In this document: piece after piece, positions 6,327-18,253 of the stretch
Layout of the letters: each line of letters starts with the position of its first letter
How positions within the stretch are numbered: the stretch's first letter is position 1
From: Deltaproteobacteria bacterium HGW-Deltaproteobacteria-19
GTDB taxonomy: Bacteria; Desulfobacterota; Syntrophia; Syntrophales; PHBD01
Length of the DNA: 64,000 nucleotides
Reading direction: 5' to 3'
Assembly (NCBI GenBank): GCA_002841865.1
Contig: PHBD01000012.1
Location: forward strand, 92,839 to 156,838
Made by a program: the position numbers and the translations under genes
The notes under the pieces: model-generated
Seen by the model: only the letters and a program-made list of their open reading frames with translations
What the model was told of the DNA's origin: nothing
The model's database searches: none

Positions 6327-8000
6327 ATGGCAGAAGAGAAGAAAAAATTGACAAGGGCCGAGAGACTCGAGGCCGAGAGGGAAAAAAATCTGCAGCATTG
6401 GCTCGCGCAGGATGAGATCCTGTTGAAGCACCGGGAGGAGGCCTACGACATCGGCGGCGCCAACCAGGTGGGCCGTTTGGCGAAGCAGGGCAAGAAACCG
6501 ATGCGCGATCTCATCACACTGCTGATCGATCCCGGAACGGAATTCTTCGAGCTGGGGCTCGACGCCGGTTACGACATCGGCAAGAAGCGCCTCTACGGCG
6601 GCGAGATCTACGAATCTGAAAAGCGCAGCCACATTCCCGGCGGCGGCGTCGTGACGGGCATCGGTACGGTCATGGGAAAAGACTGCATGATCTTTGCCAA
6701 CGAAAACCGCTACGCCGCGGGCACCTATTTCCCCATCACCCTGAAGAAGCACATGCGGGCCCAGGCGATCGCCGAACAGTGCGAACTGCCCTGCGTCTAC
6801 CTCACCGATTCGGGCGGTATCAACCTGCCTCTCCAGGTGGGATGCTTTGCCGACGACGGCCACTTCGGCAGCATGTTCTACAACATGTGCCGCATGTCCG
6901 CCAAGGGCATCCGGCAGTACACGCTTTCCACCGGCGGCAACACGGCGGGTGGTGCCTACATCGTCTACCTGGCCAGCGAATCCATCATGATCGAGAAGAT
7001 GGCTTACGCCTTCCTGGCGGGGCCCCCCATGGTCAAGTCGGCCATCGGTGAGACGGTTTCCATGGAAGACCTGGGTGGTGCTTACGTCCACACTCAGCAT
7101 TCCGGCGGCTGCGATCACTTTGTCCGCACGCAGGAAGAGGGGGTCGCGAAGCTCCGGGCCATGATGGAGTTCGAACCGACCTCGACGCTCTATATCGACC
7201 GCAGGGAGAACCGGGAGCCGAAGTTCGATTTCAAGGAGATGATGCGTGGCACCCCAACGGACACGTACCAGTACATCAACATCAAAGAGACGATCAAATG
7301 CCTCGCTGACGACAGCTATTTCTACGAGTACAAGCCCACCTACGGCCCCGGCCGCGGAGACTCCATCGTTGCCGGAAAGATGTGGATGAAGGGAATCCCG
7401 GTTGGTGTCATCGCCTCCAACGCCAGCGGCGTCATTTACATCGATGCGGCCCGGAAGGCGACGGAGTGGATGATCCGCTGCGGCAACTCGAAGCTTCCTG
7501 TCCTCTTCCTCCAGGGTTCCCCCGGCTACATGGTCGGCAAGGCCGAGGAATGGGGCGGCATCGGCAAGTACGGCTCCGACATGGTCCGGGCCTGCACCTG
7601 CCTCGATACCCCGAAGGTCACCTATGTCATCGGTCCCGACCACGGCGCCGCCAACTACGGCATGTGCGGCCGGGCCTTCAAGCCCCGCTTCGCCTTCACG
7701 AACATGCGGGGCCGCACGACCGTCATGTCCGGTGAGACAGCGGGCTTCATCGTTGAGACGGTTCGTCGCAAGAACATTGTCGATAAGGGCGAAACGGTGA
7801 ACGAGGAAGAAATGGCGGCTTTCCGAAAGATGATGCGCGACCGGTACGATGCCGAGGGTCATCCCTTCTACACCGGATCGCTCCTCTTCCACGACGGCGT
7901 GATTGCCTTCAGCGAGGCTCGGGACAAGATAACCCGTGCCTTCGAGGTCTCGTTGCGCGTGCCCATCAAGAAGTCTGATTGGGGCGACTTGAAGGTGTAA
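6327..8000 (+). CDS. Acyl-CoA carboxyltransferase (methylcrotonyl-CoA carboxylase beta / glutaconyl-CoA decarboxylase alpha-like)
   Basis: 557 residues; moves CO2 between an acyl-CoA and biotin. It has both crotonase-fold halves of the carboxyl_trans family: the N-half with LTDSGGINLPLQ and STGGNTAGGAYIVYLASE (oxyanion-hole glycines), the C-half with GVIASNASGVIYIDAARKATEWM and LFLQGSPGYMVGKAEEWGGIG. The highly charged N-terminal 40 residues are typical of this class. Neighbours (crotonase, HMG-CoA-lyase-like, free biotinyl domain) fit 3-methylcrotonyl-CoA carboxylase, but no biotin carboxylase is nearby, so a decarboxylase or a carboxylase borrowing AccC from elsewhere is equally possible. 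Ribosome site GAGGAGGG just upstream. Confidence 0.88.
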   Translation: MAEEKKKLTRAERLEAEREKNLQHWLAQDEILLKHREEAYDIGGANQVGRLAKQGKKPMRDLITLLIDPGTEFFELGLDAGYDIGKKRLYGGEIYESEKRSHIPGGGVVTGIGTVMGKDCMIFANENRYAAGTYFPITLKKHMRAQAIAEQCELPCVYLTDSGGINLPLQVGCFADDGHFGSMFYNMCRMSAKGIRQYTLSTGGNTAGGAYIVYLASESIMIEKMAYAFLAGPPMVKSAIGETVSMEDLGGAYVHTQHSGGCDHFVRTQEEGVAKLRAMMEFEPTSTLYIDRRENREPKFDFKEMMRGTPTDTYQYINIKETIKCLADDSYFYEYKPTYGPGRGDSIVAGKMWMKGIPVGVIASNASGVIYIDAARKATEWMIRCGNSKLPVLFLQGSPGYMVGKAEEWGGIGKYGSDMVRACTCLDTPKVTYVIGPDHGAANYGMCGRAFKPRFAFTNMRGRTTVMSGETAGFIVETVRRKNIVDKGETVNEEEMAAFRKMMRDRYDAEGHPFYTGSLLFHDGVIAFSEARDKITRAFEVSLRVPIKKSDWGDLKV

Positions 8001-8031
8001 TCCCGATCCGGGAAGAAGGGAGGATGAAAAT

Positions 8032-8832
8032 ATGGCAGATGTTTTGCTAAAAGAAAGAACCGAAGACGGCATCCTGATTCTGACCCTGAATCGGCCCGAT
8101 GCCATGAACTGCTTCAACACCGAGTTGCTGGCCGTGCTGGCGGACACGATCCGCGAGGCCAATTTTGATCTCGACCTGCGCTGCATCATCATCACCGGCG
8201 CTAAGGCCGGTGATGAGCCCAAGAAGTGGTCCTTTTCCACGGGTGCCGACCTGAAGGAGCGGAGGACCATGACCCAGGACCAGGTGCGACGGTTCATCTT
8301 CACGATTCGCAACACGTTCACGGCGGTGGAACAGGTTCGGGTCCCCGTCATCGCCGCCATCAACGGCTTTGCCTTCGGCGGCGGTACTGAAATAGCGCTG
8401 GCATGCGACATCCGCATCGCATCGTCCAACGTCCTGATGGGCCTGACGGAGACTTCCCTGGCCATCATCCCGGGAGCAGGCGGCACGCAGCGACTTCCCC
8501 GGATCGTGGGCATGGCGAAAGCGAAGGAACTGATCTTCACGGCCCGGCGGTTTGGTGCCCAGGTAGCCCTCGATATCGGGCTGGTGAGCAAGGTCGTGGA
8601 GCCCGACAAACTGATGGAGGCAGCTCTGGAACTGGCCCGGGAGATCGCCAAGAACGGTCCCATCGGAGTCGCTCAGGCAAAGTTCGCCATCAACTACGGC
8701 ACGGAGGCCAGTTTGGGTGTAGCCCTACCGCTGGAGTCCAAGGCCTATGAAGTGACCATTCCCACGAAAGACCGGCTGGAAGCGTTGGCGGCCTTCGCGG
8801 AGAAGCGGAAACCCGTTTTCAAGGGCGAGTAA
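8032..8832 (+). CDS. Enoyl-CoA hydratase, 3-methylglutaconyl-CoA hydratase-like
   Basis: 266 residues, a single crotonase domain. Motifs: oxyanion-hole AINGFAFGGGTEIALACD and catalytic-glutamate region LTETSLAIIPGAGGTQRLPR; the GGTE...LACD pattern is that of AUH-type 3-methylglutaconyl-CoA hydratases. This would hydrate the product of the upstream carboxyltransferase to HMG-CoA, which fits the lyase-like gene that follows. The start is supported by GGGAGGATG at 8018-8026. It begins 31 bp after the carboxyltransferase stop, so one operon is likely. Ordinary short-chain enoyl-CoA hydratase remains an alternative. Confidence 0.87.
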   Translation: MADVLLKERTEDGILILTLNRPDAMNCFNTELLAVLADTIREANFDLDLRCIIITGAKAGDEPKKWSFSTGADLKERRTMTQDQVRRFIFTIRNTFTAVEQVRVPVIAAINGFAFGGGTEIALACDIRIASSNVLMGLTETSLAIIPGAGGTQRLPRIVGMAKAKELIFTARRFGAQVALDIGLVSKVVEPDKLMEAALELAREIAKNGPIGVAQAKFAINYGTEASLGVALPLESKAYEVTIPTKDRLEALAAFAEKRKPVFKGE

Positions 8833-8947
8833 TCCATAGATCGGCGTCGTTCCTCTTCTCCGCTGCCGCCAAGGGAGGGATGGCGCCGATCATTCGGAAC
8901 CCGCAAAAAAAGAATAACGATCAAATCTGAGGAGGAGGGTAGTTTTT

Positions 8948-10141
8948 ATGGCGACAGAGTATGATTTCTGGAAAATTTTTCCCAGGATGCCCAAAAAGGT
9001 ATCCATCGGGGACATCACGATCCGCGACGGTTTCCAGCATTCCGAAAGGTTCGTTTCCACGGCCGCCAAGATTTTTTACGGGCAGGAGATGATCCTGGCC
9101 GGCTGCCGGGAACTGGAAGTGACCAACCTTGGCAGCCCGGAAGGGATCCCCCAGTTCAAGGATGCGGACGATGTCATGAAGGCCATGCGCAGCGACAGTT
9201 TCAAGAAGCGCGCCTCCCGAGCCGGGATCGACCTGGACAAGGACGTCGTCCTCACGGCCGTCAGCATTCGGGAGCCCGCTGTGGATCGGGCCATCAAGAT
9301 GAAGAAAGATGGGTACGGTCCCGACCGGATCCTGATGATGGTTTCCACGGATCCGGAGCATCATTTCGCCAATTCCGGGACCACACTTACCCAGTACTGG
9401 AAAGAGGCGGAGCGGTGTATCCAGAAGGCCCGGGATGCGGGGATCAAGATGGTCGGCACCGTCAGCACCATCTGGGGAAGCCCCATCAGTGGCGCCACGA
9501 AACTGGTAGACGCCGTGGAGTTCACCAAGCGCTGGTTCCAGATCGGCGCCCATGACATCGAGCATGCGGACCATGACGGATCGGCCAACGCAGCGGACGT
9601 CTATCGCTACTGCTCCATGATCCTTGATGCCATGCCGAATCCGGAAGGACACCTGCTTCATCTCCATGAGACGAAGAGAATCGCGTCATCTTCCATCCTG
9701 GCGTCACTGCAGGCAGGCTTCACGAGATTTGAGGGTACGCTGGGCGGCTTGGGTGGTCAGCCGGCCAATTTCCTGGATGATTGTCCCATCCGGGGCACCG
9801 GCGAGTACTACTATGACGATCCGCGCTTTGTCGGTCTGATCACGCTGGAAGATCTCCTGGTCCAGATCGATGAACTGGGCATCGAGCACGGCTACGACGT
9901 GGATCGCGTCCTCTGGCTGGGCAAGAAGATGGAGAAGACCATGAACATGAGGCTCCGCTCCGAGGCTATCTACAATGGCCGGACACAGAAGGCGGGGCAC
10001 ATGAAATTTGCGCGGCCGGGCCTGAAGAAGCTCATCGAAAAGGTTGGGGAGAAGCCGGGACAGAGTGTTCCGCCGGATTGGTCGGCGGAAGCGATCATTC
10101 CGGAGAAATGGGGTCCTGCGGATCCGATCTGGAAGAAGTAA
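8948..10141 (+). CDS. HMG-CoA lyase-like DRE-TIM metallolyase lacking the loop cysteine
   Basis: 397 residues, a pyruvate-carboxyltransferase/HMGL-like TIM barrel. Family motifs: ITIRDGFQ (catalytic Arg-Asp and first metal ligand, about residues 20-27), HIEHADHDG, metal-binding HLHET and the glycine-rich loop FEGTLGGLGGQP. In true HMG-CoA lyases the loop reads GLGGCP with a catalytic cysteine; here residue 271 is Gln. The C-terminus is about 90 residues longer than the usual bacterial enzyme (about 300 aa). Operon context predicts HMG-CoA cleavage to acetoacetate and acetyl-CoA, but the missing Cys argues for a variant mechanism or another substrate. Ribosome site AGGAGGAGGG upstream. Confidence 0.82.
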   Translation: MATEYDFWKIFPRMPKKVSIGDITIRDGFQHSERFVSTAAKIFYGQEMILAGCRELEVTNLGSPEGIPQFKDADDVMKAMRSDSFKKRASRAGIDLDKDVVLTAVSIREPAVDRAIKMKKDGYGPDRILMMVSTDPEHHFANSGTTLTQYWKEAERCIQKARDAGIKMVGTVSTIWGSPISGATKLVDAVEFTKRWFQIGAHDIEHADHDGSANAADVYRYCSMILDAMPNPEGHLLHLHETKRIASSSILASLQAGFTRFEGTLGGLGGQPANFLDDCPIRGTGEYYYDDPRFVGLITLEDLLVQIDELGIEHGYDVDRVLWLGKKMEKTMNMRLRSEAIYNGRTQKAGHMKFARPGLKKLIEKVGEKPGQSVPPDWSAEAIIPEKWGPADPIWKK

Positions 10142-10768: not shown

Positions 10769-11161
10769 TCACTTGATCGGCCATTCGCCCCGTTCCTTCA
10801 GGACGTCCCGGTAAATCTCCAAGGCTTCATTGACGGCGGGCATGCCGGCGTAGGTCGCCACCTGGAAGAAGATCTCCGCCAGCTTCCGGGGATCGCAGCC
10901 AACATTCAGGGCGGCGTTGACATGCAATTTCAACTCGCCCGTGGCCCGAAGGGCCGCCAGCATGGCGCAGGCCGCCATCTGCCTCTCCGGCAGGGTCAGC
11001 ACCGTCCTGGAGTACAGGTTTCCCGTAATAAACCGGGAAAAGTCATTGGCCAGATCTTTGTCGTACTGGCGCCACATCAGGTACGGGGGATCCATCTTGA
11101 TCCCCTTGCCGAACAGCCTGGTGGCCGTCTCCTGGGTTTTCTTGTTGACGTCGTCGCTCAC
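10769..11161 (-). CDS. Carboxymuconolactone decarboxylase (CMD) family protein
   Basis: 130 residues, all-helical CMD fold. The core ERQMAACAMLAALRATGELKLHVNAALNVGC is typical of the PcaC/CMD branch, ending with GMPAVNEALEIYRDVLKERGE. The redox CxxC of AhpD is absent (single Cys residues only), so a peroxidase role is unlikely. Family members include 4-carboxymuconolactone decarboxylases and many uncharacterised stand-alone proteins; in an anaerobe the ring-cleavage role is doubtful. The ribosome-site region AAAGGAGAGGAAGCG is immediately upstream on the minus strand. It is separated by 140 bp from the deacetylase gene, possibly same operon. Confidence 0.85.
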   Translation of the reverse strand: MSDDVNKKTQETATRLFGKGIKMDPPYLMWRQYDKDLANDFSRFITGNLYSRTVLTLPERQMAACAMLAALRATGELKLHVNAALNVGCDPRKLAEIFFQVATYAGMPAVNEALEIYRDVLKERGEWPIK

Positions 11162-11301: not shown

Positions 11302-12618
11302 CTATCTCGATTTTACCTGGAAATTGTCTTTGTCCCTGTCCTGGAGATAAACATGGGAGTACTGCTGGACGGGAATTTTCCCGTAAAATTCTTCACCCTC
11401 CCGGCGGCAGGTGGGACAGGCGTGGCGCGGAATGATGACGGCGTAGATCCGGTTTCCCGTGTCCGCCTGGGAGTCGATCAGGACGAGACCCCCGCAGTCC
11501 TCGCAGATGCGGACCGTTTCCTCCTGGTGCTCGGAGATGCCGTCCGTATCATAGTAGATGCCCTTTTGCCGGCGGGCATATCGCGAATCCCCGACCATTT
11601 TCTTTTTGAAGGAATATCGGTTTTTCCAGAGCTTGCGGATTTCTGCCACGTCCCGCTCGATTTTCCGCGTCAGTTCATCCGACTGGCGGAGGGACTCGGC
11701 GTTAAAATCGGGTTCCCGGACGGAATCGTAATCGAGGCCGGCCATGGCCAGGATGATGCCCATATTCACATAGGGCAGGGCCTTCTCGATGGAATACCCG
11801 CCCTCTAGAACGGCGATGTCGGGTGACAGCCGGTCGTTCAGAAGGGCGTATCCGCGGGCGCTGAAGCGCATGTTCGTGATCGGATCGCTATAGTGATTGT
11901 CCTGGCCGGCGGAATTGATGATCAGCTCAGGCTGGAAATCGTCCAGGATCGGCAGGATGGCATTTTCCAGGGTGTAAAGAAATCCCTCGTCGGATGTCCG
12001 GGGCGGCAGGGGGATGTTGATCGTGTAGCCGAGGGCGTTCGGTCCCCCCATTTCCTCCTGGAAGCCCGTGCCCGGATAGAGCGTTCGGCCGTCCTGGTGG
12101 ATGGAGATGCACAGGGTATCCGGGTCGTTCCAGTAGATGTCCTGGGTGCCGTCGCCGTGGTGGCAGTCGGTATCGACGATGGCGACTTTCCGGATGCCGT
12201 AATGCTTCCGGATGTATTCCACCATGACGGCCTCGATGTTGATGTTGCAGAATCCCCGGGCTCCGTGCACCACGAGCATGGCGTGATGGCCCGGCGGCCG
12301 GACGAGAGCGAAGGCATTGTCCACTTCCTTGCGGAGCACCTTGTCGGCTGCGGTGATGGCCCCGCCGGCGGAAATCAGGTGGGATTCGGTGATGACGGAG
12401 CGGGCGTCGGGAACGCAGATGTGGGCCCGGTTGATGTCCTCGACGGTGGCCATGCCCGGCTTGAACTCGATAATGTTTTCGAAATCCAGGAGTCCCTCTT
12501 CGAATACCTGGTCCTGCGTATAGAGGAGCCGTTCCTCCCGCTCCGGATGGGTGGGGGAAATGGCCCAATCGAAAGCGGGGAAAAAGATGAGCCCTGTCTT
12601 TCTCGGTTTCTTCGTCAT
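11302..12618 (-). CDS. Histone deacetylase-family amidohydrolase with C-terminal Zn-ribbon
   Basis: 438 residues. Zinc amidohydrolase of the arginase/deacetylase fold: VRPPGHHA (His111-His112), DTDCHHGDGTQ (ligands Asp151 and His153), SAGQDNHYSDP (third ligand Asp240) and the catalytic Tyr in LEGGYS (Tyr275) are all intact, so it should be active on an N-acetyl substrate such as an acetyl-lysine or acetyl-polyamine. Residues 280-360 are a charged linker, then a rare addition: two CxxC pairs, Cys372/375 and Cys401/404, which would form a zinc ribbon. The start overlaps the stop of the hydantoinase gene by 4 bp, so the two proteins are co-translated. The substrate is unknown. Confidence 0.9.
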   Translation of the reverse strand: MTKKPRKTGLIFFPAFDWAISPTHPEREERLLYTQDQVFEEGLLDFENIIEFKPGMATVEDINRAHICVPDARSVITESHLISAGGAITAADKVLRKEVDNAFALVRPPGHHAMLVVHGARGFCNINIEAVMVEYIRKHYGIRKVAIVDTDCHHGDGTQDIYWNDPDTLCISIHQDGRTLYPGTGFQEEMGGPNALGYTINIPLPPRTSDEGFLYTLENAILPILDDFQPELIINSAGQDNHYSDPITNMRFSARGYALLNDRLSPDIAVLEGGYSIEKALPYVNMGIILAMAGLDYDSVREPDFNAESLRQSDELTRKIERDVAEIRKLWKNRYSFKKKMVGDSRYARRQKGIYYDTDGISEHQEETVRICEDCGGLVLIDSQADTGNRIYAVIIPRHACPTCRREGEEFYGKIPVQQYSHVYLQDRDKDNFQVKSR

Positions 12619-14288
12619 GGCTTTCCCCCCGCGGCAAAGCCGGCGATCAGTCCCGGCTTGACCTGTACCTTCACGCGGATATTCTTCCCGGTCGTGTAGA
12701 ACTGCTTGACCATGTTGAATTCCATGTCTTCGATCACTTCGATCTCCAGGTCCTCTTCACGGGCTCCCATGCCCTTTACCTTTTCGCGCAGGCGATCCTG
12801 CCCGATCCGAATGGCATCCGCCTTGGTGAACCGAGCCGGAATGCTCTCCTGGTAACCATCTTCCGCGATGGTCAGGATCCGCTGTTCCGTGTCGGCCAGG
12901 AGCGTCATCTCGGCTGTAGTTCGGGCCAGTGCGGCGCCGATGGCATTGGCCACCTCCGCATGTTCGGGGATCTGTGCGGGGATACCCAGAAGTTCCGCAA
13001 GACGCGGAGCGATCGGTTCGGCGGGGCCTCCGACCACGAACAACGTCTTTGGGACCAGTTTCTTGCCTTCCAGCATTTCATGGATCGTATAGACAGGCTT
13101 GTTGTTGACTTCCTCGATCATGGACGTGACAGCCGCCGATATGATCCGGCAGGTTTCCTCGTGGACAGCCCGGGCTGCATCTTCGATTCCCATGCCCATC
13201 TGCCGGCCCACATCCTCCATGGCTTTTCGGGCCAGCGACGCGTCACCGATGCCGGTCAGACCAAGGACGATCATGGCGTCCGTTGGGGTCGGGCAGGGTC
13301 CTCCACAGGCGTATGCCGGTCCTTCCCGGACGGGACCGATCTGCAGGCCGCCGTCTGTGACGCTGATCCGGCTGTCGCCTCCCAAGCCGATGGATCTGGT
13401 CTTCAGCCCGCGAATCAGGGTTTTGTGGCCCTCAATGGTTACACCGAAGGGCTCCAGGAGCGGTACCCCGTCCGCGAAAAGGGCGATGTCGGTTGTGGTC
13501 CCGCCTATATCGAGGGCGACCGCATCCCGGCGGCAGCGGGCCATGCTGAGAATGCCCATGATGCTGGCAGCCGGGCCGGAGAGAATCGTCTGAACAGGGA
13601 ATTCACGCGAGTGCTCGATGTCGAAGGTTCCTCCGTCCGCTTTGAGGATATAGATTGGAACATTGATTCCCTGATCGCGCACAAAGCCCTGAATCTGCGA
13701 GATGAACGTGTTGTAGCGACGCCAGATCGACTCGTTGAGGTAGGTAGTTGCGATCCGTCGGGGAAAGTTCAGATGACCCGACAGGCGGTGGCCCATGGAC
13801 ACGTGTTGAAAGGATCCCTCCAGGAGATCCCGGACCGTCCCCTCCTGTTTCGGGTTCCGGGTGGAGAACTTGCCGACCACGCCGATTTGCTGGATTTCTT
13901 TTTCCCGAAACCGCCTCGATGCTTCAACGACTTCACCCGGATCGATGGCAGCCATTTCCGCACCGCGGTGGTTGGAATAACCGCGAATATGAACGCTGTC
14001 TTTCTGAACGGGAAGTAAAGAAGGAGGAAGTCCGGGACCGCTGATGAGGATCATGCCGACGCGGTCCGTTTTTTTCTGGACGATGGCGTTTGTGGAGAGG
14101 GTTGTGCTCAGGACGACACGCTCGAGCTTTTCCAGCTGTTCGTCTTTCAGAAGATCGGTCGTAACGGCCAGGAGGGAATTCAGCAGGTTTTTCTCGTCGG
14201 TTGGTACTTTTGTCTTGCGTTTGACGTGCAGGTTTTCGATCAGGACTGCATCTGTATGTGTCCCCCCGACATCGATGCCCAAGATCAT
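12615..14288 (-). CDS. Hydantoinase/oxoprolinase family protein
   Basis: 557 residues from ATG 14288, chosen because the family begins MILGIDVGGTHTDAVLI and a GGGGGG ribosome site lies just upstream; the 80-codon extension is not homologous. Two ASKHA-type phosphate-binding motifs appear, GIDVGGTHTDA at the N-terminus and ALDIGGTTTDIALF midway, plus GPAASIMGILSMA and VVGGPAEPIAPRLAELL. It corresponds to HyuA/acetone-carboxylase-beta-like ATPases but is shorter than hydantoinase A (about 680 aa). Such enzymes open cyclic amides or carboxylate ketones with ATP. No HyuB partner is present; its overlap with the deacetylase gene suggests joint action on an N-acylated compound. Confidence 0.88.
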   Translation of the reverse strand: MILGIDVGGTHTDAVLIENLHVKRKTKVPTDEKNLLNSLLAVTTDLLKDEQLEKLERVVLSTTLSTNAIVQKKTDRVGMILISGPGLPPSLLPVQKDSVHIRGYSNHRGAEMAAIDPGEVVEASRRFREKEIQQIGVVGKFSTRNPKQEGTVRDLLEGSFQHVSMGHRLSGHLNFPRRIATTYLNESIWRRYNTFISQIQGFVRDQGINVPIYILKADGGTFDIEHSREFPVQTILSGPAASIMGILSMARCRRDAVALDIGGTTTDIALFADGVPLLEPFGVTIEGHKTLIRGLKTRSIGLGGDSRISVTDGGLQIGPVREGPAYACGGPCPTPTDAMIVLGLTGIGDASLARKAMEDVGRQMGMGIEDAARAVHEETCRIISAAVTSMIEEVNNKPVYTIHEMLEGKKLVPKTLFVVGGPAEPIAPRLAELLGIPAQIPEHAEVANAIGAALARTTAEMTLLADTEQRILTIAEDGYQESIPARFTKADAIRIGQDRLREKVKGMGAREEDLEIEVIEDMEFNMVKQFYTTGKNIRVKVQVKPGLIAGFAAGGKP

Positions 14289-14454: not shown

Positions 14455-14691
14455 ATGAAGAGGGTCTTCGCTATCGTTCTTTCCCTGCTATTCTGCGTGT
14501 CGTTATCCTTCGCAGTGGTTGGCTGCAAGAAGGCAGAAGAGCCGAAACCCGCAGAGGTGAAGCAGGCAGCCCCGGCTCCGGCCCCGGCTCCGGCCCCGGC
14601 TCCGGCCCCTGGTGCGGCTCCCGCAGCCCCTGGCGCGGCTCCCGCAGCCCCCGGCGCAGCTCCGGCAGCCCCGGCAGCTCCGGCAAAGTAG
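14455..14691 (+). CDS. Small Ala/Pro-rich lipoprotein
   Basis: 78 residues. A signal peptide MKRVFAIVLSLLFCVSLSFA leads to a lipobox-like AVVGC with the acylated Cys at residue 23 and KKAEE after it, indicating a membrane-anchored lipoprotein. The rest is low complexity: a (Ala-Pro)n run, then three copies of GAAPAAP, with almost no folded content. Such tails act as flexible extensions near the cell wall or outer membrane. Upstream sequence AAAGGAGGTGA is a strong ribosome site, though its spacing to the ATG is long. It is monocistronic: own promoter, and a strong terminator at 14719. Function unknown. Confidence 0.8.
   Translation: MKRVFAIVLSLLFCVSLSFAVVGCKKAEEPKPAEVKQAAPAPAPAPAPAPAPGAAPAAPGAAPAAPGAAPAAPAAPAK
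14572..14673 (+). repeat. In-frame tandem repeats encoding Ala-Pro tail
   Basis: From 14572 a 12-bp pattern GCTCCGGCCCCG repeats to 14610, followed by three 21-bp units (14611-14631, 14632-14652, 14653-14673), each encoding GAAPAAP. Unit sizes are multiples of three, so copy-number slippage would keep the frame. Confidence 0.85.
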
Positions 14692-14718
14692 TTTCCTCAG
14701 ATTAAGATTGAATAAGCG

Positions 14719-16468: not shown

Positions 16469-17461
16469 GTGGACGTAATTGCACAAGGAAGCGGAAAGAT
16501 CTTCACGGATCCGGATGCGGACAAGGCGCGGGCATTCTTCCGCACCAAAAACCGCAAACTGGAAAGCAAGGTCATGACCGTGAAGGAAGCGGTCGAGAAA
16601 TTTACCAAAAACGGCGATTATCTTGTTTTGGGCGGTTTCGGAGCAAACAGGATCCCGGCAGCGGTGGCGCACGAGCTCCTTCGGCAGGGACGGAAGAATA
16701 TGGGCTTCGCTGGCCATACATCCACCCACGATTTTCAGATTCTCTGCGCCGGTGAAGTGTTCGACAAACTGGATGTGGCGTACATCGTCGGTCTGGAGGC
16801 CCGCGGTCTCTCTCCCAATGCCAGAAAGTACATGGAGAGCGGCAAGGTGGACGTAAGTGAGTGGACGAACTATTCGCTGTCCGTTCGCTTCAAGGCGGCA
16901 GCGGCCGGCGTTTCCTTCCATCCGGCCCGGAATGTCATGGGAACGGATACCTTCAAGTTCAGCGGCGGAAAAATCATTGCCTGTCCATTCACGGGAACGA
17001 AGTACATCGCCCAGCCGGCCATTTACCCGGATGTCGCGGCCATTCATGTCCATGAGGCCGACATTTACGGAAACTGCCGCGTCCGGGGCATCACCGTGTC
17101 GGACTTCGACGTGGCCCGGGCTGCCAAGCGGCTCATCATTACCTGCGAACGCCTGATCACCAATGACGAAATCCGGCGTGATCCAAGCCTGACGGTGATT
17201 CCCTACTGGTGCGTCGATGCGGTCTGCGAGGTTCCTTTCGGTAGCTATCCCGGAAACATGTATGGCGAATACTTCTCCGATGAAGACCATCTGCGGGAAT
17301 GGATGAAAGTCGAGCAGGATCCTGACGAGTTCAAGAAGTTCCTCGACAAGAACATTTACAGCTGCAAGGATCACTTCGACTACATCGACCGGAACGGCGG
17401 AATGCGGAAGATGCAGATGCTGCGCCAGAAGGAATTCATGTTCATCGGCGCCAGGTCTTAG
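16469..17461 (+). CDS. CoA-transferase subunit A, glutaconate CoA-transferase-like
   Basis: 330 residues; alpha subunit of a class I CoA-transferase. The start is GTG at 16469, with AGGGAGGT 8 bp upstream. Family features: VMTVKEAVEKFTKNGDYLVLGGFGANRIPAAVAHEL at the start of the NagB/RpiA/CoA-transferase fold, IACPFTGTKYIAQPAIYPDVAAIHVHEAD and ITCERLITNDEIR. It is longer than SCOT-type A subunits and closest in layout to GctA/IpdA. It would pair with the protein encoded 21 bp downstream. Possible substrates are glutaconate, acetoacetate or a ring-derived acid. Confidence 0.87.
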   Translation: MDVIAQGSGKIFTDPDADKARAFFRTKNRKLESKVMTVKEAVEKFTKNGDYLVLGGFGANRIPAAVAHELLRQGRKNMGFAGHTSTHDFQILCAGEVFDKLDVAYIVGLEARGLSPNARKYMESGKVDVSEWTNYSLSVRFKAAAAGVSFHPARNVMGTDTFKFSGGKIIACPFTGTKYIAQPAIYPDVAAIHVHEADIYGNCRVRGITVSDFDVARAAKRLIITCERLITNDEIRRDPSLTVIPYWCVDAVCEVPFGSYPGNMYGEYFSDEDHLREWMKVEQDPDEFKKFLDKNIYSCKDHFDYIDRNGGMRKMQMLRQKEFMFIGARS

Positions 17462-17482
17462 GGAAAGGAGGAAACAGAGCAA

Positions 17483-18253
17483 ATGGCTGATTACAATACA
17501 ATGGAATTGATGATCTGCACCGCCGCCCGTGAGCTGGAAGACGGTGCTTCGGTCGGCGTCGGTACAGGTGCACCCTGCGCGGCGGCGATGCTGTCCCAGA
17601 AAACGGGATCCCCCAACCTCACCATTCTGTTCGAGGCGGGCGGAGCAGCCCCCCTGATTCCCGAGATGCCCATCTCCGTGGGTGATTCCCGGACGACCTG
17701 GAAAGCCCTCATGGCCAGCGGCATGTGCGAGATCATGGAAACGGCCTGCCGTGGAATGCTGGACTACACCTTCCTCGGTGGCGCCCAGATCGACATGTAC
17801 GGAAACCTGAATTCCACGCGCATCGGGCCGGACCACCAGAAGCCGAAGGTCCGCTTCCCCGGGAGCGGCGGCGCCAACGATTTCGCTTCCTTCTGCTGGC
17901 GGATGATGGTCATGACCCCGCAGGATCCCAAGCGTTTCTCCGAGAAATGCTCTTTCATCACCACTCCCGGGTGGCTGGAAGGCGGCGATTCCCGGGCCAA
18001 GTCGGGTCTCCCCCTGGGAGCCGGACCCTATAAGATCATCACCAACATGGCGGTGATGGATTTCGAGCCCGAGTCCAAGCGGATGCGCATTGTTGCCGTC
18101 AATCCCGGCTATTCCGAGAAGGACGTGCAGGACAACTGCGGTTTTGAGCTTCTGAAGGCCAAGAAGATCATCGACAACCCGCCTCCTTCAGCGGAAGAGC
18201 TCCACATCCTCCGGGATGTCATCGATCCTTACCGTTACGTCATCGGACGGTAA
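17483..18253 (+). CDS. CoA-transferase subunit B, glutaconate CoA-transferase-like
   Basis: 256 residues; beta subunit, with the active-site glutamate in most family members. Here LTILFEAGGAAPLIP places Glu51 where the catalytic Glu54 of GctB lies, so true CoA transfer rather than IpdAB-type hydrolysis is likely. Other marks are VGVGTGAPCAAAML near the N-terminus and FLGGAQIDMYGNLNST, KPKVRFPGSGGANDFAS, the usual glycine-rich closing motifs. It forms an operon with the A subunit, ended by the terminator at 18290. The exact acid pair is not determinable. Confidence 0.88.
   Translation: MADYNTMELMICTAARELEDGASVGVGTGAPCAAAMLSQKTGSPNLTILFEAGGAAPLIPEMPISVGDSRTTWKALMASGMCEIMETACRGMLDYTFLGGAQIDMYGNLNSTRIGPDHQKPKVRFPGSGGANDFASFCWRMMVMTPQDPKRFSEKCSFITTPGWLEGGDSRAKSGLPLGAGPYKIITNMAVMDFEPESKRMRIVAVNPGYSEKDVQDNCGFELLKAKKIIDNPPPSAEELHILRDVIDPYRYVIGR

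Follow-up and report, generated by a model that had tools for sequence, protein, structure and literature searches.

Two overlapping genes on the reverse strand are the subject of this report, and they lie within the window, i.e., the whole 64,000-nucleotide stretch of DNA that was analyzed: a gene for a HyuA-type protein and, directly downstream, a gene for an HDAC-fold zinc deacylase (Table 1). The initial annotation had placed both open reading frames at these positions and had described a 4-bp overlap between them, and both statements hold, the overlap being read directly from the sequence as ATGA. The pair is not a chance arrangement, because the tail cysteines of the deacylase are invariant in 81 homologues and both genes recur in more than 100 genomes. 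Just upstream of the HyuA gene and divergent from it is a short ORF (window 14456–14692, forward strand), the product of which resembles a lipoprotein and contains a proline-alanine repeat. Furthermore, the pair is flanked by carboxyltransferase, crotonase, HMG-CoA-lyase-like, and CoA-transferase genes (window 6327–10141 and 16469–18253, forward strand), an acyl-CoA gene set common to only some of the Syntrophales relatives (6 of 15 Syntrophales loci).

Table 1. Positions in the window of the gene pair and its associated features.
Feature	Position	Strand	Description
Deacylase ORF	11302..12618	−	438 aa, HDAC-fold zinc deacylase, PF00850 E 3.3e-65
HyuA-type ASKHA protein ORF	12615..14288	−	557 aa, PF01968 E 3.6e-48 and PF05378 E 3e-26
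ATGA stop/start overlap of the HyuA and deacylase genes	12615..12618	−	stop 12615–12617, start 12616–12618
Four-cysteine C-terminal tail of the deacylase	11302..11586	−	residues 345–438, CxxC at 372–375 and 401–404
Carboxymuconolactone-decarboxylase (CMD)-fold gene	10769..11161	−	PF02627; third gene of the cluster, Syntrophales only

Features of the Two Proteins

The catalytic core of the deacylase spans approximately residues 5–336 and is closest to bacterial HdaH and Kdac1, and the PF00850 profile scores over the cut-off. Residues H111, H112, D151, H153, D240, and Y275 (in the motif LEGGY) are present and are invariant in 81 of 81 aligned homologues; H111 and H112 are taken to be the His-His pair of HDACs, D151, H153, and D240 the zinc ligands, and Y275 the catalytic tyrosine. 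With all these active-site residues in place, the deacetylase appears to be catalytically complete, as had initially been proposed. The AlphaFold model (pLDDT 88.8) gives VIA Z scores of approximately 40 to HdaH (a solved structure) and Kdac1, and only the core was matched when the whole deacylase was compared. Residues 11–40 (the L1 loop) contain 16 invariant columns among 81 rows, yet their mean pLDDT is 51–66 when the protein is modelled alone; this pattern is as expected of a partner-dependent loop, for which the model is an indication rather than a proof. At the gatekeeper position, I247, the window protein reads DPIT; DPIT/PIT is found in 69 of 81 homologues, and Ile, Leu, or Val in 81 of 81. 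According to the available text of a survey of bacterial deacylases (PMC11532494), the gatekeeper of HDAC10 is a glutamate (PEG), and bacterial polyamine deacetylases (ApaH) carry PIS. A further hallmark of the acetylpolyamine deacetylases is an active site restricted by dimer formation.

The tail cysteines (C372–C375 and C401–C404) are invariant in the 81 aligned homologues and vary little in a second alignment of 33 sequences with greater divergence, so that the two added CxxC pairs reported for this protein are both present and conserved. No Pfam family matches the tail over the cut-off, the best weak matches being DnaJ_CXXCXGXG and Zn_ribbon_TFIIB; the two pairs are predicted to bind zinc. 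The window genome carries three other HDAC-fold genes besides that of the pair.

The model of the HyuA-type protein (pLDDT 90.1) gives VIA Z scores of 29.3 to residues 6–619 of the caprolactamase CapA and 28.7 to ApcA; the comparison with CapA has an rmsd of 5.3 over 521 aligned residues, and the last ~75 residues of CapA have no equivalent in the window protein, which shows distant sequence similarity to CapA and to N-methylhydantoinase. Both phosphate motifs, DxGGTxTD (D6–D13) and DxGGT (D260), are kept, and D11, D295, and D302 of CapA correspond to D6, D260, and D267. On the other hand, N269 of CapA aligns with L236, and none of the 77 family members has GxxPGP, the adenosine motif found in CapA; compared with six canonical HyuA proteins from the same phylum, the region has a five-residue deletion. 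Conserved in its place are K216, D218 (ADGG in 71 of 77), and D305 (GGDS in 76 of 77). Sinorhizobium and Azoarcus have solitary HyuA-type proteins that also contain GGDS. Because GxxPGP is absent and N269 is replaced by L236, the protein may no longer use ATP or phosphorylate a substrate, and nucleotide use by the HyuA-type protein is, judged by its motifs, uncertain. In the earlier description of this protein as a hydantoinase-family ATPase, ATPase activity is a prediction from fold and motifs. The HyuA gene of the pair is the only PF01968 gene in the window genome, and no HyuB gene (PF02538) was found there.

Occurrence, Linkage, and Neighboring Genes

Among 60 relatives, including the window genome itself, a deacylase orthologue is present in 39 and a HyuA orthologue in 41, and HyuA lies directly upstream of the deacylase in 39 of 39; apart from the window genome, 38 of 59 relatives have deacylase orthologues that are 70–96% identical. 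Two draft genomes of more than 400 contigs each depart from the pairing: G008, in which an intact HyuA is accompanied only by a 61-residue piece of the deacylase tail on another contig, and G033, which lacks the deacylase and has a fragment of HyuA. The single contig of G035 (3,179,300 bases) carries both genes. Of the 41 order members that have a pair-type HyuA, 2 carry HyuB and 39 lack it, and PF02538 is carried by 4 of the 60 relatives overall.

When 395 genomes from the phylum were sampled (threshold E 1e-60), each gene was found in 113 genomes and both in 112, where 32 would be expected, the observed co-occurrence being inflated by shared ancestry. In the apparent deacylase-only genome (G512), HyuA was recovered at E 3.7e-51 by a weaker search; in the apparent HyuA-only genome (G385), HyuA runs off the contig end on the deacylase side. 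As read by eye from the coordinates (G417 was joined over a contig break by a later search), the pair is adjacent in 98 of 113 genomes, and both genes are present but unlinked in 14, which belong to two lineages: ten genomes come from genus g116 and four from family f100. The strongest argument for a joint function is that both genes persist even where they are unlinked; together with their sharing by 112 of 113 genomes, this strongly supports the joint operation suggested in the initial annotation, and the pair very probably works as one unit.

The pairing is widespread, being found in many anaerobes, rather than peculiar to the window genome. When the best 80 of at least 587 relatives were kept in a named scan, many of them metagenome bins, HyuA was directly upstream of the deacylase in 79 of the 80 loci, in at least three phyla. 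The carriers among these best 80 of at least 587 include Syntrophales, Desulfobacterales, Syntrophobacterales, and Desulfarculales; Herminiimonas, Oxalobacter, Oxalicibacterium, and Herbaspirillum of the Oxalobacteraceae; a Xanthobacteraceae bacterium; and, in the Firmicutes, Thermanaeromonas and two others. The deacylase at L224:9001-10308 is the sole HyuA-less locus in the same best 80 of at least 587, with EpmA still downstream. Pairwise distances of HyuA and the deacylase correlate with r 0.90 over 77 pairs, relatedness being included in this value, and the best of 500 permutations gives 0.10. Three pattern matches on viral contigs include no relative; plasmids yielded one generic HDAC and no deacylase orthologue, and 24 plasmid records have a distant HyuA.

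The genes that follow the pair differ among clades. In 19 of 30 Syntrophales-type loci, that of the window among them, the deacylase is followed by a homologue of the CMD-fold gene. In 21 of 81 loci, from Desulfobacterales and allies, the next gene is instead EpmA (EF-P lysine ligase); these loci, between L183 and L225, carry it as an apparent third operon gene, and L197:10323-11300 overlaps the deacylase by 4 bp. RlmN, an rRNA/tRNA methyltransferase, takes that position in 10 of 81 loci (L180, L184, L194, L201, L209, L211, L213, L218, L226, and L230). Two different translation-related genes thus fill one slot in two clades, and their common service to translation may be a hint. No third gene is conserved around the pair outside single clades, and, because the neighbors differ by clade, the pair looks like a self-contained module rather than a piece of one fixed pathway.

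Three links to known pathways were tested, and none of these pathways is required. EF-P lysylation is not required: among 80 hand-chosen genomes (family cut-off 286.9), EpmA scores over the cut-off in 30 of the 40 genomes that have the pair and in 24 of the 40 that lack it, which leaves 10 pair-bearing genomes without it; the borderline pair-lacking genome G303, scoring 285.7, was counted as absent, and G155, with EpmA in two pieces, as present. Replacement of 5-oxoprolinase does not fit either, as PxpA (PF03746) is found in 90 of 395 genomes, 30 of them shared with the pair, where 25.7 are expected, and the window genome has PxpA. Finally, nspC is found in 95 of 395 genomes of the phylum and is enriched with the deacylase (47 deacylase-bearing genomes, 27 expected), yet it is absent from the window genome and from 66 of 113 deacylase-bearing genomes, so that the carboxyspermidine pathway is not required. 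In several genomes of genus g116, carboxynorspermidine synthase, nspC, or both lie close to the unlinked deacylase.

Possible Function of the Pair

In the caprolactamase CapAB, CapA is the ATP subunit held to phosphorylate the amide and CapB is the zinc hydrolase, according to the available text of PMC8453981. Since HyuB is missing from the window genome, the HyuA-type protein there would be offered an HDAC-type zinc hydrolase instead of CapB. The pair is tentatively read, with somewhat less than even confidence, as an obligate two-protein amide-hydrolyzing module in which an HDAC-type hydrolase replaces HyuB. The two proteins would associate, probably docking through the L1 loop and the four-cysteine tail of the deacylase. 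With the help of a nucleotide, the HyuA-type subunit would activate the substrate by phosphorylation or gate it, and hydrolysis, the task of HyuB/CapB in the lactamases of the family, would fall to the HDAC-type zinc subunit. Because the neighborhoods vary among clades, the substrate is more probably an amide or acyl-amine that occurs in many cell types than one catabolic compound. HDACs cleave acyl-lysine without a need for ATP, and the need for energy is therefore not obvious. The loss of GxxPGP and of an equivalent of N269, the 14 genomes with unlinked genes, the two drafts in which the pairing is broken (G008 and G033), and the HyuA-less locus L224 also count against this reading. That the HDAC replaced HyuB in a nucleotide-coupled deacylase, with hydrolysis activated by substrate phosphorylation or powered by the actin-fold ATPase, is conceivable but doubtful.

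The main rival explanation, possible though rather unlikely, is a protein lysine deacylase that erases marks left by reactive acyl-CoA, with HyuA as a nucleotide-sensing on/off subunit that does not touch the substrate. A precedent is seen in Bacillus subtilis, in which the Ap4A-binding protein AcuB inhibits its HDAC-like partner AcuC (PMC13039410). AcuC–AcuB resembles the present pair in that an HDAC-like enzyme is coupled to a protein that binds a nucleotide, as the HyuA-type protein may; it differs in that AcuB has CBS and ACT domains and no ASKHA fold. The lysine deacylases Kdac1 and HdaH are the closest folds of the modelled deacylase, I247 differs from the glutamate gatekeeper of HDAC10 as described in the accessible part of PMC11532494, and loss of the adenosine motif could suit a sensor better than a kinase. 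In Syntrophus aciditrophicus, of the same order, acyl-lysine marks derived from acyl-CoA intermediates are reported to be abundant, whereas the deacylases named in the available text of that report are sirtuins, not HDACs (PMC9676460). Acyl-CoA enzymes are neighbors of the pair in the window, but few relatives share them, as noted above. A regulator would, furthermore, be dispensable in principle, yet the deacylase is almost never found without HyuA.

Less probable still is that HyuA and the deacylase perform successive steps, without a complex, on acylated polyamines or a related small amine. This improbable reading draws on the enrichment of nspC with the deacylase, the neighborhoods in g116, and PIT in 69 of 81 homologues set against the PIS that the available text of PMC11532494 gives for bacterial polyamine deacetylases. 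However, the linkage to the nspC region is confined to that one genus and is absent in G228, nspC is missing from the window genome and more than half of the deacylase-bearing genomes, and the sequence of the deacylase scores higher to HdaH/Kdac1 than to ApaH.

The reading of the initial annotation amounts to breakdown by the pair of hydantoins, N-acylated cyclic amides, or amino-acid derivatives, for which the family names and the distant similarity to CapA and N-methylhydantoinase speak. This substrate class received no specific support and is very unlikely: HyuB, on which characterized lactamases of the hydantoinase family depend, is missing, GxxPGP is absent in all 77 family members and the diagnostic motifs are unlike those of the six canonical HyuA proteins, the third gene around the pair changes between clades, and PxpA is not replaced, showing no anticorrelation with the pair. 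Finally, it is scarcely credible that the two genes merely travel together with no functional link, since, for all the inflation of the co-occurrence figures by shared ancestry, both persist in the 14 genomes, from two lineages, in which they lie apart, and their order is held in at least three phyla among the best 80 of at least 587 relatives.

Relation to Known Systems

HDACs and HyuA proteins are both already known. A literature search, with most subscription journals outside its reach, found no description of the HyuA–HDAC pair as a conserved module; the main text of the bacterial deacylase survey (PMC11532494) contains neither "hydantoinase" nor "Desulfo", and the main text of a paper on mutant fitness in D. 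vulgaris (PMC10102598) contains neither "deacetylase" nor "oxoprolinase". In the usual view, HDACs are energy-independent hydrolases and HyuA-type subunits partner HyuB. The near-universal HyuA–HDAC pairing points to an enzyme, or a regulated form of deacylase, that has gone unrecognized in syntrophs and sulfate reducers, for which heavy protein acylation is reported in the available text of PMC9676460. Activity, complex formation, and nucleotide use are directly testable because the genes are of ordinary size.

CapAB, 5-oxoprolinase, HyuAB, and the acetone/acetophenone carboxylases, which combine an ASKHA and a metal subunit, share with the pair the HyuA fold and both phosphate motifs. In CapAB and HyuAB, the zinc hydrolase partner is encoded next door, as in the pair; the partner in the pair is, by contrast, of the HDAC fold and not HyuB/CapB, and its HyuA lacks GxxPGP and has a shorter C-terminus. 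HdaH, which forms part of cluster 1 in the survey according to its available text (PMC11532494), and Kdac1 share the catalytic core and all active-site residues (Z ~40), whereas the window deacylase adds the four-cysteine tail, the conserved loop FPAFDW...THPEREERLLYTxDQ, and the HyuA-type partner. On pBcl1 of [Bacillus] caldolyticus (L254:94-5548), a HyuA-type gene overlaps the gene of another non-HyuB partner, which is annotated as DUF917 and not as an HDAC, its HyuA being 28.6% identical to that of the window; the replacement of HyuB by DUF917 beside HyuA-type proteins is apparently another exchange of partners.
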